Below, one piece after another: positions 2,525 through 47,099 of a stretch of 64,000 nt of DNA. The translations under genes were made by a program, and so were the position numbers. The DNA is taken from assembly GCA_015075425.1 (NCBI GenBank), contig JABTUL010000002.1, positions 496,001 to 560,000 on the forward strand. The letters are read 5' to 3'. The notes beneath the pieces were generated by a model. It had not been told where the DNA came from. It saw nothing but the letters and a program-made list of their open reading frames with translations, and ran no database searches. The stretch is from Spirochaetales bacterium. Its GTDB lineage: Bacteria > Spirochaetota > Leptospiria > Leptospirales > Leptonemataceae. Positions within the stretch are counted from its first letter, which is position 1. Each line of letters opens with the position of its first letter.

Positions 2525-3733
2525 ATGGAATCTTTTGAAAAATACAAGAAGGATATCAAAAATAAAGGGTTTGCTACCCGTGCAATCCGCTGGCAATTGC
2601 CGCGCACGGAACATCAGGAGCATTCCGTTCCTCTGTACCTGACATCCAGTTTTGTTTTCGAAGATGCAGAAGAAGCCCGCTCTCTATTTGCTGATGAAAA
2701 GCAGGGTAGTATCTATTCACGTTTCTCCAATCCTTCCGTGGATGAATTTATTCAGAAAATGTGCCTTCTGGAAGAAGCGGACGATGGTGTGGCTTTTGCT
2801 TCTGGAATGGCCGCAGTATTTGGCTCGCTCATTCCATTTCTTTCAGCCGGAGACCATGTGCTGGCCTGCCGGGCCATCTTTGGTTCCACCCATCAGATTC
2901 TGAACCGGATCCTGCCGCGCTGGCAGATCAGCCACACCTATCTGGATGCCCGGGCCCGTCCGGAGGAATGGGAGGCAGCCCGGCGGCCACAAACGCGTCT
3001 GATCATTGTTGAAACGCCATCCAATCCCGGCCTTGATGTTCTGGATCTGGAATGGCTGGGCCGATTCGCCCGGGAACACGGCATTCTGCTTCTGGTCGAT
3101 AATTGCTTTGCCACCCCCTATTTGCAACAGCCTGTGCGTTCTGGTGCCCATCTGGTTTTGCATTCGGCCACAAAATTCATTGATGGTCAGGGGCGGGCCG
3201 TTGGTGGCATCGTTGTGGGCGATCGCGACCTCATCAAGGAAGTGCGGTTCTTTGCCCGACACAGTGGACCATCGCTATCACCTTTCCATGCCTGGCTATT
3301 CAGCAAAAGTCTGGAAACGCTGGCTTTGCGGATGGAAAGGCATTCGACCAGCGCGCTTGAGCTGGCCCGATTTTTAGAGACGCAGCCGGCCGTTGAAAGA
3401 GTCATCTATCCCTTTCTTGATTCTCATCCGGATTTTGCGCTGGCAAAGAAGCAAATGAAGATGGGCGGGGGCGTCCTTTCCTTTATACTCAGGGGCGGCC
3501 TGGAAAGCGGAAAGAGGTTTCTTGGCGCTCAGGAGATGCTTTCGCATACAGCCAACCTGGGCGATACCCGGACCATTGTAACCCATCCAGCTTCCACCAC
3601 CCATTCCAGACTTACGGAAGAAGAACGATTGGCTGTGGGCATACTGCCAGGGTTGATTCGTGTTTCCGTGGGGCTTGAAGATTTGCCCGATTTAATCGAG
3701 GATCTGACCCGCTGCATTGCTGCTGCTGGCTGA
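2525..3733 (+). CDS. metZ: O-succinylhomoserine sulfhydrylase (Cys/Met PLP enzyme)
   Basis: A 402-residue fold-type I PLP enzyme of the Cys/Met metabolism family. The Schiff-base lysine is K217 in HSATKFIDGQGR; the DGQGR continuation is typical of MetZ rather than cystathionine gamma-synthase or methionine gamma-lyase. Expected reaction: O-succinylhomoserine plus sulfide to homocysteine, the direct sulfhydrylation route to methionine. It follows gltX by two bases. Its last 42 bases overlap the end of the convergent flippase-like gene. An O-acetylhomoserine substrate cannot be excluded from sequence alone. Confidence 0.88.
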   Translation: MESFEKYKKDIKNKGFATRAIRWQLPRTEHQEHSVPLYLTSSFVFEDAEEARSLFADEKQGSIYSRFSNPSVDEFIQKMCLLEEADDGVAFASGMAAVFGSLIPFLSAGDHVLACRAIFGSTHQILNRILPRWQISHTYLDARARPEEWEAARRPQTRLIIVETPSNPGLDVLDLEWLGRFAREHGILLLVDNCFATPYLQQPVRSGAHLVLHSATKFIDGQGRAVGGIVVGDRDLIKEVRFFARHSGPSLSPFHAWLFSKSLETLALRMERHSTSALELARFLETQPAVERVIYPFLDSHPDFALAKKQMKMGGGVLSFILRGGLESGKRFLGAQEMLSHTANLGDTRTIVTHPASTTHSRLTEEERLAVGILPGLIRVSVGLEDLPDLIEDLTRCIAAAG

Positions 3734-4753
3734 CCCGGGATTCCCGGGGCCGCTGGAGAACAGATAGGCGGGCAGGCCAAGCAGCGCAGTTACGACCATG
3801 AAAAGATGGAGGGCCAGAACAATTTCACTGCCGCCTCCAGGACCGATTTCCCGGTAAAGGATTTCTCCGGAGAGTTCACCAATGCCGAGTCCCGCCGGTG
3901 TCAGCGGTGCCATGTGTACGAGCGTGATGCCTGGAATGGTCAAAGCATGTTTGAGGAAACCTTCTTCGTAGGAAAAGAATCCGGCGGCGAAAACAAGAGC
4001 ATAAGTATAAAAAATGTAAGAAATCAGACCCAGAAGAATCATGGTCAAAAATCCGCTCCAGGTTATCCGATCAATGAGTTCGAGAGGCATGTGATTCTCG
4101 AGGCGTCGGAGCAAGGGTCGCAGAAATCCGATCGACTGCAGACGCGAGCCGGCTAAAAGCAACAGGCTTGCTCCCAGAAATAGAAAGCAGTATATAAGAA
4201 ATAGTATTTTCATCAGGCGGGAATCCTTGATCCAGTTCTGCCCGGCCAGCATGATGAGAATAGCAAAAATGGTCATGGAATAGAAACCAAAAAAACGATC
4301 CAGGACAATGCTTCCGATGATTTCCTTCCAGTGGATGTTCTGGCTATTTTTACGAATGTAATATCCCTTGACTACGTCTGCGGAAAGTCCTCCCGGAAGA
4401 AGCAAACCCAGAAACTGACCGATCAAATGGGCTCGCAACAGGCCGAGCAGTGGCAGTCCCAGGAGAATCTGTAAACGTGCCACGTTGATGTTGTAGCAGA
4501 TGAAGGTAAAGGCAGTTCCGCCGGCGAAATGCCAGGGTTTTTCCTGAAAGCCTTTCTCTATGCGCGCCGGATCAATCCAGTCCAGGGCCAGGAGAAAGTA
4601 GAGCAGGGCAGCACTGATCAAGCTGCGCAGCAGAAAATAGCCACCACGTTTGAGCGTTTGCTTTTTACGCGCTCGAGAATCCAGCTGTGGGGGTTCCGCC
4701 ATCCATGCAAGTTTTTCACTGGACGAAAACGGTCCATCCATTTGTGTGGACAT
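3692..4753 (-). CDS. Flippase-like LPG-synthase TM-domain membrane protein
   Basis: A polytopic inner-membrane protein of about 353 residues with roughly seven to eight helices, resembling the lysylphosphatidylglycerol-synthase transmembrane family (UPF0104/AglD-like). The segments around LIGQFLGLLLPGGLSADVVKG and the later LTPAGLGIGELSG are typical. The family includes lipid flippases or glycolipid-related proteins, but the substrate here is unknown. The start is uncertain: ATG at 4753 has GGAG only two bases upstream; 4741 and 4705 are alternatives. Any of these lies within or next to the region antisense to the cobalamin riboswitch. The 3' end overlaps metZ convergently. Confidence 0.75.
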   Translation of the reverse strand: MSTQMDGPFSSSEKLAWMAEPPQLDSRARKKQTLKRGGYFLLRSLISAALLYFLLALDWIDPARIEKGFQEKPWHFAGGTAFTFICYNINVARLQILLGLPLLGLLRAHLIGQFLGLLLPGGLSADVVKGYYIRKNSQNIHWKEIIGSIVLDRFFGFYSMTIFAILIMLAGQNWIKDSRLMKILFLIYCFLFLGASLLLLAGSRLQSIGFLRPLLRRLENHMPLELIDRITWSGFLTMILLGLISYIFYTYALVFAAGFFSYEEGFLKHALTIPGITLVHMAPLTPAGLGIGELSGEILYREIGPGGGSEIVLALHLFMVVTALLGLPAYLFSSGPGNPGSASSSNAAGQILD

Positions 4754-4838
4754 CTCTCCAGGGAGGAAGTCGGGTGCAAATCCCGCGCTGACGCGCAACT
4801 GTGAAATCGGCTGAAAGCTGATAAGCCAGATCTTCCCC
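4728..4838 (+). ncRNA. Cobalamin riboswitch aptamer
   Basis: The conserved cobalamin-riboswitch blocks appear in order: an AGGGAGGAAGTC-GGGTGCAAATCCC segment (about 4768-4793), the GCGCAACTGTGAAATCGG segment (about 4793-4810), and a B12-box-like AGCTGATAAGCCAGATC (about 4816-4832). A short stem GTCCA/TGGAC (4732-4736 with 4747-4751) precedes them. The element points toward the two lipoprotein genes that begin at 4977. The exact P1 limits are approximate because I judged pairing by eye. Confidence 0.88.
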
Positions 4839-4976
4839 GGTATGAGGCGCCGCGTATGCGTTCTCATACATAGCAATCGTTTCGGCAGGCCCGGAACGGC
4901 AGCAGGGGTCCCGGAGAATGGGACCCGCTATCCACTCTCGGTTTGCCGGTCCCGCACATTAAAACTGGAGGACCAG
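4839..4976 (+). promoter_or_regulatory. Riboswitch expression platform with alternating complementary segments
   Basis: Between the aptamer and the first ATG lie a hairpin GTATGAG/CTCATAC (4840-4846 with 4863-4869) and four mutually complementary GC segments: GGGTCCC at 4906-4912, GGGACCC at 4920-4926, GGTCCC at 4948-4953 and GGACC at 4970-4974. The last overlaps the Shine-Dalgarno GGAGG. The segments can pair 1-2 and 3-4 (ribosome site hidden) or 2-3 (ribosome site free). No U-tract follows, so translational control is more likely than termination. The pairing is seen; the regulatory logic is inference. Confidence 0.6.
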
Positions 4977-5558
4977 ATGAAACTCAAAATGAGAATTTTC
5001 CTGATGACGCTTGCATTGACCCGCTGCCTTGAGGTAGCTATACCCGCTACCGGGGAAAGCAAAGAAGAATTCGATCGCACAACTCACACATTGCTTCTTG
5101 GAGTTGAGGGTCTCAAACGGCAAAAAGACAACGATGTAGCGGCTGTATACGGCAGTCTCTTTGAATTACGCGGGGCCTGGAATAGCTATACCGGTAACGG
5201 TACGACACAGGATACGGTTGTGCGCTATCCCTCAGGCCTTGATGAAACCGTTCATACAGACTCTTCCGCTTTTGGAGGCTATGCCAGTTGTGAAGTTCTT
5301 AAATACTTTAACAATGCGGGCCTGCTCATCACACAGAATCCAGAGAATTACGGCGCCTGCTTTTCCGGTGACACCAACAAAGGGAAATACAATAAATCCG
5401 TTTATTTTCGTGATGGTGGACGGGTATGGATTTGCAGTGTAGCCTTTGGCAAGGCGACCTTTGAAGACGCTTTGAACTCTGCGGACAATGCTAATAGATC
5501 GTCTCCGGGCACTGCTGGTTGCGGGTCCAGTGCCTGGAGCCGGATCGAAAAGCGATGA
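4977..5558 (+). CDS. B12-riboswitch-controlled putative lipoprotein, first gene
   Basis: A 193-residue protein beginning at an ATG with GGAGGA seven bases upstream, directly after a cobalamin riboswitch. Residues 1-17 form a signal with a possible lipobox ending in Cys17 (LALTRC). The body is rich in Gly, Ser, Thr, Asn and Tyr and has three further Cys, like small surface proteins of Leptospirales; no domain was recognised. The stop overlaps the next start (ATGA), so the pair is coupled. A role in capturing or sensing cobalamin is inferred from the riboswitch only. An in-frame start at 4842 lies inside the riboswitch and is unlikely. Confidence 0.7.
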   Translation: MKLKMRIFLMTLALTRCLEVAIPATGESKEEFDRTTHTLLLGVEGLKRQKDNDVAAVYGSLFELRGAWNSYTGNGTTQDTVVRYPSGLDETVHTDSSAFGGYASCEVLKYFNNAGLLITQNPENYGACFSGDTNKGKYNKSVYFRDGGRVWICSVAFGKATFEDALNSADNANRSSPGTAGCGSSAWSRIEKR

Positions 5559-6442
5559 GTCCAGGCCGCAGCCTGGTGGGGCTTTTTGCCCTGCTTCTCA
5601 CTGTGCGGTGCGCTTTACTGGATCTGCCTTTTCTGCCGGCGGAAAAAACCGGACCCGGGGCAGAACTGGCGCTCCTCCTTCTGGTTGGAAGCGGGGCCCT
5701 GGGTGGAAGCGGAAGTGCGACGGCAAGCTGCTCCGGTGGCCTGCCGCAGGCACCGGCCTATCTTGCGGATACAGTGACTTCCGCTCCCGGTTCCTTGTCC
5801 GGCGGCAGTTTCGACGATCCTTCCCGGGCGACCAACGGTATCTGTGGAGCTGGAAATGACTCCGGTTCTTTAGATGTGTACTCCCTGGAGCAGACGGGAG
5901 CACGTTCGGTTTTGACTCTGGAGTGGGCAGGCAAGAAGGTTAGCAATGGAGTGGGTGTGGATTTTGTTGTTTTTGAAAATGCGTTTCGTATTAGCGGCAG
6001 CTCAACGGCGCTCTTCATGGATCCACTTATCGTTGAAGTAAGTCGAGACAACAGCAAATACTGTGGCTTTGCGCCGGATTACACGGCCAGCCCGGAAAGC
6101 AGCTACAGTAACAATCCGGCGCACTGGCAGCGGTTTGCCGGCCGCACTCCCGTTCTGTACAACGTGCTCACCAATCCTCTTTCCGCCGATGCGATCTTTG
6201 ATTCCACTCAGGCTGGCGGTGACGGATTTGACCTTTCTGACCTGAGTGATTCAAATGCTTTCAGCACGGGTTGCGATACGGCGGAGAGGAATGCGATCCA
6301 GAGTAGTGGATTTATTTACCTGCGACTCACCGCGGCAACGGCAAGACAGAATCCAGACACGGCCGCAGCTTTTCTTGCCGAATCTGTAGCCACCGGTCCT
6401 GATATTGATGGCGTTGTTGCCCGTCACCTGCTGCAGCGTTAG
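5555..6442 (+). CDS. Putative surface lipoprotein with FENAF motif, B12-regulated
   Basis: A 295-residue product starting at the ATG of an ATGA overlap. Residues 1-19 are a signal with possible lipobox LTVRC. The central stretch GVGVDFVVFENAF (about residues 130-142), with later ranges rich in Asp/Ser/Asn, resembles the 'DFVVFENxF' proteins I associate with cobalamin-regulated surface-protein loci in other phyla; that association is from memory and not checked. It probably sits on the cell surface or outer-membrane inner face and acts with the preceding lipoprotein. No TonB-dependent receptor is visible next to it. Confidence 0.65.
   Translation: MSPGRSLVGLFALLLTVRCALLDLPFLPAEKTGPGAELALLLLVGSGALGGSGSATASCSGGLPQAPAYLADTVTSAPGSLSGGSFDDPSRATNGICGAGNDSGSLDVYSLEQTGARSVLTLEWAGKKVSNGVGVDFVVFENAFRISGSSTALFMDPLIVEVSRDNSKYCGFAPDYTASPESSYSNNPAHWQRFAGRTPVLYNVLTNPLSADAIFDSTQAGGDGFDLSDLSDSNAFSTGCDTAERNAIQSSGFIYLRLTAATARQNPDTAAAFLAESVATGPDIDGVVARHLLQR

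Positions 6443-47026: not shown

Positions 47027-47099
<73 letters not shown>

Follow-up and report, generated by a model that had tools for sequence, protein, structure and literature searches.

A probable cobalamin riboswitch with translational output and a proposed strand-exchange relay upstream of two lipoprotein genes in a spirochaete of the order Leptospirales

The analyzed stretch of 64,000 nucleotides (the window) contains a leader of about 250 nt, which lies between a divergent minus-strand gene and two lipoprotein genes (Table 1). The first lipoprotein has no Pfam or NCBIfam match. The second is a clear member of the LIC_13355 family, with a score of 274.8 bits (E 6.2e-82) against NF033170, for which the cut-off is 120, and its start overlaps the end of the first gene by four bases (ATGA). 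A sequence search of both lipoproteins against the PDB gave no match. In Foldseek, the best match of the model of the LIC_13355 family protein (5555-6439) was BtuG1 of B. theta (8blw_B, E 5.5e-3), which was too weak at a TM of 0.30 and was not used as evidence. The model of lipoprotein 1 (4977-5555) is a small beta barrel with a weak likeness to potempin E and lipocalins (E of at least 0.04).

Table 1. Features of the leader and the adjoining genes (positions in the window).
Feature	Position	Strand	Basis or remark
Lysylphosphatidylglycerol-synthase-like gene, divergent	3692-4702	-	
AdoCbl-type cobalamin riboswitch aptamer with P13	4740-4872	+	cmscan RF01482
Segment 0, UCUCC-A-GGGA, flank and P3 5' strand; alternative partner of segment 1	4755-4764	+	0-1 pairing conserved in position among homologues
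P3 5' strand GGGAGGA, partner 4831-4837	4761-4767	+	Rfam alignment; MFE
L5 ACGCG, kissing partner of L13	4791-4795	+	sequence; L5/L13 co-change; swap test
P3 3' strand UCUUCCC	4831-4837	+	Rfam alignment; MFE
P13 hairpin GUAUGAG/CUCAUAC	4840-4869	+	swap test; compensatory changes
L13 CGCGU, inside the P13 hairpin	4851-4855	+	pairs L5 ACGCG 4791-4795
Segment 1, GGGUCCC 4906-4912 (partner 2), overlapping UCCCGGAGA (partner 0)	4906-4917	+	swap tests
Segment 2, GGGACCC, partner 1 or 3	4920-4926	+	1-2 and 2-3 swap tests
Segment 3, GGUCCC, partner 2 or 4	4948-4953	+	swap tests
Segment 4, GGACC 4970-4974, together with the Shine-Dalgarno GGAGG 4967-4971 that it overlaps	4967-4974	+	sequence
Lipoprotein 1, 193 aa	4977-5558	+	in many genomes of the order, homologues also follow the riboswitch
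LIC_13355-family lipoprotein (gene 2)	5555-6442	+	NCBIfam NF033170

The original prediction of a cobalamin riboswitch in this leader was upheld by a covariance search. At default thresholds, the Rfam scan of the window gave no riboswitch match; the only match above the thresholds was a tRNA gene (47027-47099, minus strand). Permissive cmscan matched the region to RF01482 (AdoCbl) with 42.6 bits (E 1.5e-6), which is below the gathering score of 50 bits, and the match took in positions 1-149 of the 149 in the model, i.e. the whole aptamer. At the same place RF00174 scored 22.4 bits, and this was the sole RF00174 match in the 4.13-Mb genome. Judged by its sequence, the aptamer is of the cobalamin type and related to RF01482, below the threshold of a curated member. 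The L5-L13 kissing loop and P13, which are features of cobalamin riboswitches, are present in the window. L5 and L13 change together in homologous leaders (ACGCG/CGCGU, UCCCG/CGNGGA and ACGG/CCGU, as read from the leaders), and P13 covaries. L13 was also sought in the downstream GGUUUGCC (4940-4947), paired with GCAAAU of the loop after 4771; this candidate was rejected, since the L5-L13 co-change fits P13.

The four complementary segments described in the original prediction could be read directly downstream of the aptamer (Table 1), the last of them overlapping the Shine-Dalgarno sequence of the first lipoprotein gene, and no terminator-like site was found in 4640-5020, in line with the claim of a switch without a terminator. 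The window's leader folds at z = -3.0, i.e. beyond chance. In our reading, the four segments form the far end of a longer chain, which starts in the aptamer with segment 0, the pairing partner of 4909-4917 in segment 1. Translation of the first lipoprotein gene, with its ATG at 4977, was retained as the output, but the description of the four segments as a complete switch was too strong: on their own they give neither the link to the aptamer nor the sign of regulation, the L5-L13 contact with P13 and segment 0 were absent from it, and 3-4 is the weakest helix. In the window, 3-4 comprises 5 bp and competes with a local 4-bp hairpin (CUGG-AGGA-CCAG, CTGGAGGACCAG) at 4965-4976, which holds the Shine-Dalgarno sequence. 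The MFE structure of the window also contains a 9-bp outer stem (CGGCAGGCC 4883-4891 with GGUUUGCCG 4940-4948), which encloses hairpin 1-2 and ends at segment 3. In addition, the MFE offers segment 4 another partner, GGTCC at 4732-4736 on the 5' side of the aptamer, which is relevant only if transcription starts before 4732.

An RF01482-type element was found in 28 of the 30 genomes of the order. In the class, 41 of the 48 genomes had RF01482 matches and in one of the 48 a match exceeded the gathering score; nearly all of these riboswitches are missed at the Rfam threshold. Homologues of gene 1 and of gene 2, the latter detected also by phmmer in the fetched loci, repeatedly stand behind the riboswitch. 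The named matches closest to the window come from MAGs of Leptospiraceae and Leptospirales. Outside the window's family, LIC_13355 can come directly after the riboswitch (five loci). For comparison, we used 23 leaders from the window's own family, which are of two types. In the 14 long leaders, the distance from P3 to the start is 122-219 nt, and they precede gene 1 or its homologues. The nine short leaders (66-85 nt) precede other genes, namely TonB-dependent receptors (6/9), an aminotransferase/CbiA protein (1/9) and an unassigned protein (2/9), and in these leaders segment 2 is the Shine-Dalgarno sequence.

The pairings were assayed by a swap test, in which the duplex energy with the own partner was compared with that of partners swapped in from other genera (5000 swaps). 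For 0-1, with segment 0 taken as the flank plus the GGGA of P3 against the platform, the own partners gave -402 and the swapped ones -328 (sd 10), and for 1-2 the values were -399 and -309 (sd 20), both in the 23 leaders. The 2-3 pairing gave -253 and -175 (sd 11) in the 14 long leaders, and P13 gave -324 and -211 (sd 12). The result was 0/5000 in all four cases, and it did not change when each genus was represented by a single leader of each type. The L5-L13 test gave 10/5000. In the case of 3-4, the signal was weak (107-256/5000), which is expected of a short helix with a fixed Shine-Dalgarno sequence. Of the predicted alternation between 1-2/3-4 and 2-3, the pairings 1-2 and 2-3 are supported by covariation, but the 3-4 side of it may form less firmly. 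Compensatory changes were found in an alignment of four congeners, in 4 of the 8 pairs of P13 and in 4 of the 14 pairs of 0-1. Taken by itself, the window scores no better for 0-1 with its own partner (-16.1) than with foreign ones (-15.6), so the case for it is that homologues have 0-1 at the same place. The 0-1 test in the order's second family is suggestive only (189/5000).

In 21 of the 23 leaders, as read by eye, the best 0-1 duplex extends into the GGG of P3, and it therefore excludes P3. This bears on a pseudoknot reading of the bound state, with segment 0 paired to the 1-2 hairpin loop; 0-1 would then exist alongside 1-2, and switching would be driven by the kissing loop alone. The loop of 1-2 (4913-4919) is indeed the flank-pairing part in the window, and L5-L13 is the typical signalling route of cobalamin riboswitches (PMC10653944, PMC10907184). 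However, 0-1 shares its CCC with 1-2 as well as its GGG with P3, and nothing found here would be left to open 1-2 in the other state; we consider such an arrangement quite unlikely.

When the platform was folded apart, alternative structures with the Shine-Dalgarno sequence paired or free appeared. In this platform-only folding, the cost of opening the Shine-Dalgarno sequence fell upon occupation of segment 1 from 5.7 to 2.5 kcal/mol in the long leaders (lowered in 14/14) and from 8.4 to 1.2 kcal/mol in the short ones (9/9). The direction was the same in 23/23 leaders, with a change from 8.6 to 4.7 in the window itself. Blocking of segment 1 in the long leaders had a mean effect of -3.24 on the opening, and blocking of segments 1 and 2 together had an effect of -0.59, the controls being -0.38 for other blocked windows and -0.10 (sd 0.35) for dinucleotide shuffles. 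The effect of the first block is mostly lost with the second, and therefore the signal from segment 1 to the Shine-Dalgarno sequence goes via segment 2 in the long leaders.

Full-length folding showed no such shift. With 0-1 or P3 forced, the mean accessibility of the Shine-Dalgarno sequence in the long leaders was unchanged (0.35 vs. 0.35), and in the window its unpaired probability was 0.60 and 0.59 in the two states. Folding of the whole leader with and without constraints, which had been proposed as a check of the original prediction, was thus not decisive, and the relay is visible only in the platform-only folding and in the comparison of homologues. In the window, 0-1 lies 6.6 kcal/mol above the ensemble, so in this energy model the OFF state would be favoured even without ligand. 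Given the full-length folding, the relay would need a contribution from co-transcriptional kinetics or tertiary contacts. The unchanged Shine-Dalgarno sequence in the window would also agree with a real aptamer followed by a mere cluster of GC-rich hairpins, the output being a simple Shine-Dalgarno hairpin or transcript stability. The 3-4 helix of just 5 bp and the local hairpin that already covers the Shine-Dalgarno sequence fit this as well. It is nevertheless very unlikely, as the covariation of 1-2 and 2-3 and the epistasis between the single and the double block in the long leaders speak against it.

We propose, with a probability of about 70%, that the leader acts on translation as a cobalamin riboswitch, by means of a strand-exchange relay. 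In the cobalamin-bound state, P3 together with the L5-L13/P13 contact would keep segment 0 within the aptamer, 1-2 would form, segment 3 would be left for segment 4, and the Shine-Dalgarno sequence would be covered (OFF). When cobalamin is absent, segment 1 would invade from the flank, capture segment 0 and open P3, and 2-3 would then form and release the Shine-Dalgarno sequence (ON). The 0-1 duplex is placed here as the ligand-free competitor of the aptamer because it runs into the P3 strand in nearly all of the leaders. The short leaders of the TonB receptors and the cobalamin-synthesis gene would be the same device ending at segment 2, and since segment 2 is their Shine-Dalgarno sequence, both versions should share the sign. 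B12 normally represses genes for TonB receptors and for cobalamin synthesis. From this and from the shared sign of the two versions, the most likely sign is that B12 turns translation OFF. For corrinoid riboswitches, see PMC10653944.

Strand parity would suggest a B12-activated reading, which we rank second, as short leaders are located in front of TonB receptors. It would place 0-1 in the ligand-bound state, as a closing helix around the aptamer and P13, so that B12 frees segment 2 for segment 3 and translation is ON. A short P3 could be retained alongside the 5-11 bp of 0-1 that lie in the flank, and an activating corrinoid riboswitch is known, that of cobT in A. halodurans (PMC10653944). 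We regard this as unlikely, since 0-1 extends into the P3 strand in most leaders and the TonB receptors and the cobalamin-synthesis gene behind short leaders would become B12-induced.

The element, read as a repressing relay, resembles the RF01482/class II cobalamin riboswitches (env8) in the P3-P6 core, the conserved boxes, P13 directly after P3 and the L5-L13 kissing pair, and probably also in translational repression. Unlike them, it scores below the Rfam cut-off, and its ribosome site lies outside P13/L13, some 70 to 220 nt downstream of P3, where it would be reached via strand exchange from the P3 5' strand. In ermC-type translational attenuators, four segments are arranged so that 1-2/3-4 hides the Shine-Dalgarno sequence and 2-3 frees it, and segment 1 is taken by a ribosome stalled on the leader peptide. 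The leader would follow the same four-segment logic, the likeness being in the platform only, whereas here a strand of the ligand-binding aptamer would take segment 1. Among corrinoid riboswitches, those of P. megaterium metE and A. halodurans cobT also use P13 and alternative platform pairings to set the output; they differ in being transcriptional with terminators, in having P13 rather than the P3 flank as the switch strand, and in fewer exchanges (PMC10653944). The leader offers a testable example of a cobalamin aptamer that would, with no terminator involved, govern a ribosome site at a distance of about 140 nt. Its short and long natural versions, which occur side by side in some genomes, allow comparison, and the Rfam threshold hides such riboswitches in nearly the whole class.

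The lipoprotein operon is probably co-regulated with B12 uptake, and the conservation of riboswitch and genes together across the order suggests that these little-understood lipoproteins help in this uptake, a role that we infer from regulation and neighbourhood. In relatives, the operon runs from lipoprotein 1 through LIC_13355 to a third and a fourth gene (five loci); proteins with DUF4430 and DUF6580, Pfam-confirmed in several of these loci, continue it. In B12 binders of the transcobalamin type, a DUF4430 domain makes up the C-terminal region (PMC4350170). One genome has homologues of gene 1, DUF6580 and LIC_13355 that divergently adjoin a unit of riboswitch and TonB receptor. The window's genome has no DUF4430, and its DUF6580 protein is encoded at another place.

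LIC_13355 has been published as an adhesin that binds laminin, plasminogen and fibronectin, in a text with no mention of B12 or a riboswitch (PMC11891782), and LIC13354/LIC13355 were up about 3.7-fold in host-adapted L. interrogans (PMC3953431). The regulation proposed here provides these lipoproteins with a physiological hypothesis other than the published role, a surface step of B12 uptake. Taken together, the following wider picture is tentative, and we rate it slightly below even odds: a lineage-wide riboswitch would work by toehold-like invasion of its own P3, and two more exchanges would carry the signal on to a remote ribosome site, the longer form would have arisen from a shorter ancestor upon insertion of a new lipoprotein gene, and the LIC_13355 family, now seen as adhesins, would be part of a B12-uptake system.

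Relatives of LIC_13355 were also found elsewhere. Two contigs titled as a Klebsiella pneumoniae MAG carry one, and these are probably mislabelled MAGs. At six loci outside the phylum, from CSSED10-310, Deltaproteobacteria and Polyangiaceae, motifs resembling cobalamin riboswitches by pattern match only lie 0.6-4 kb upstream of such relatives.
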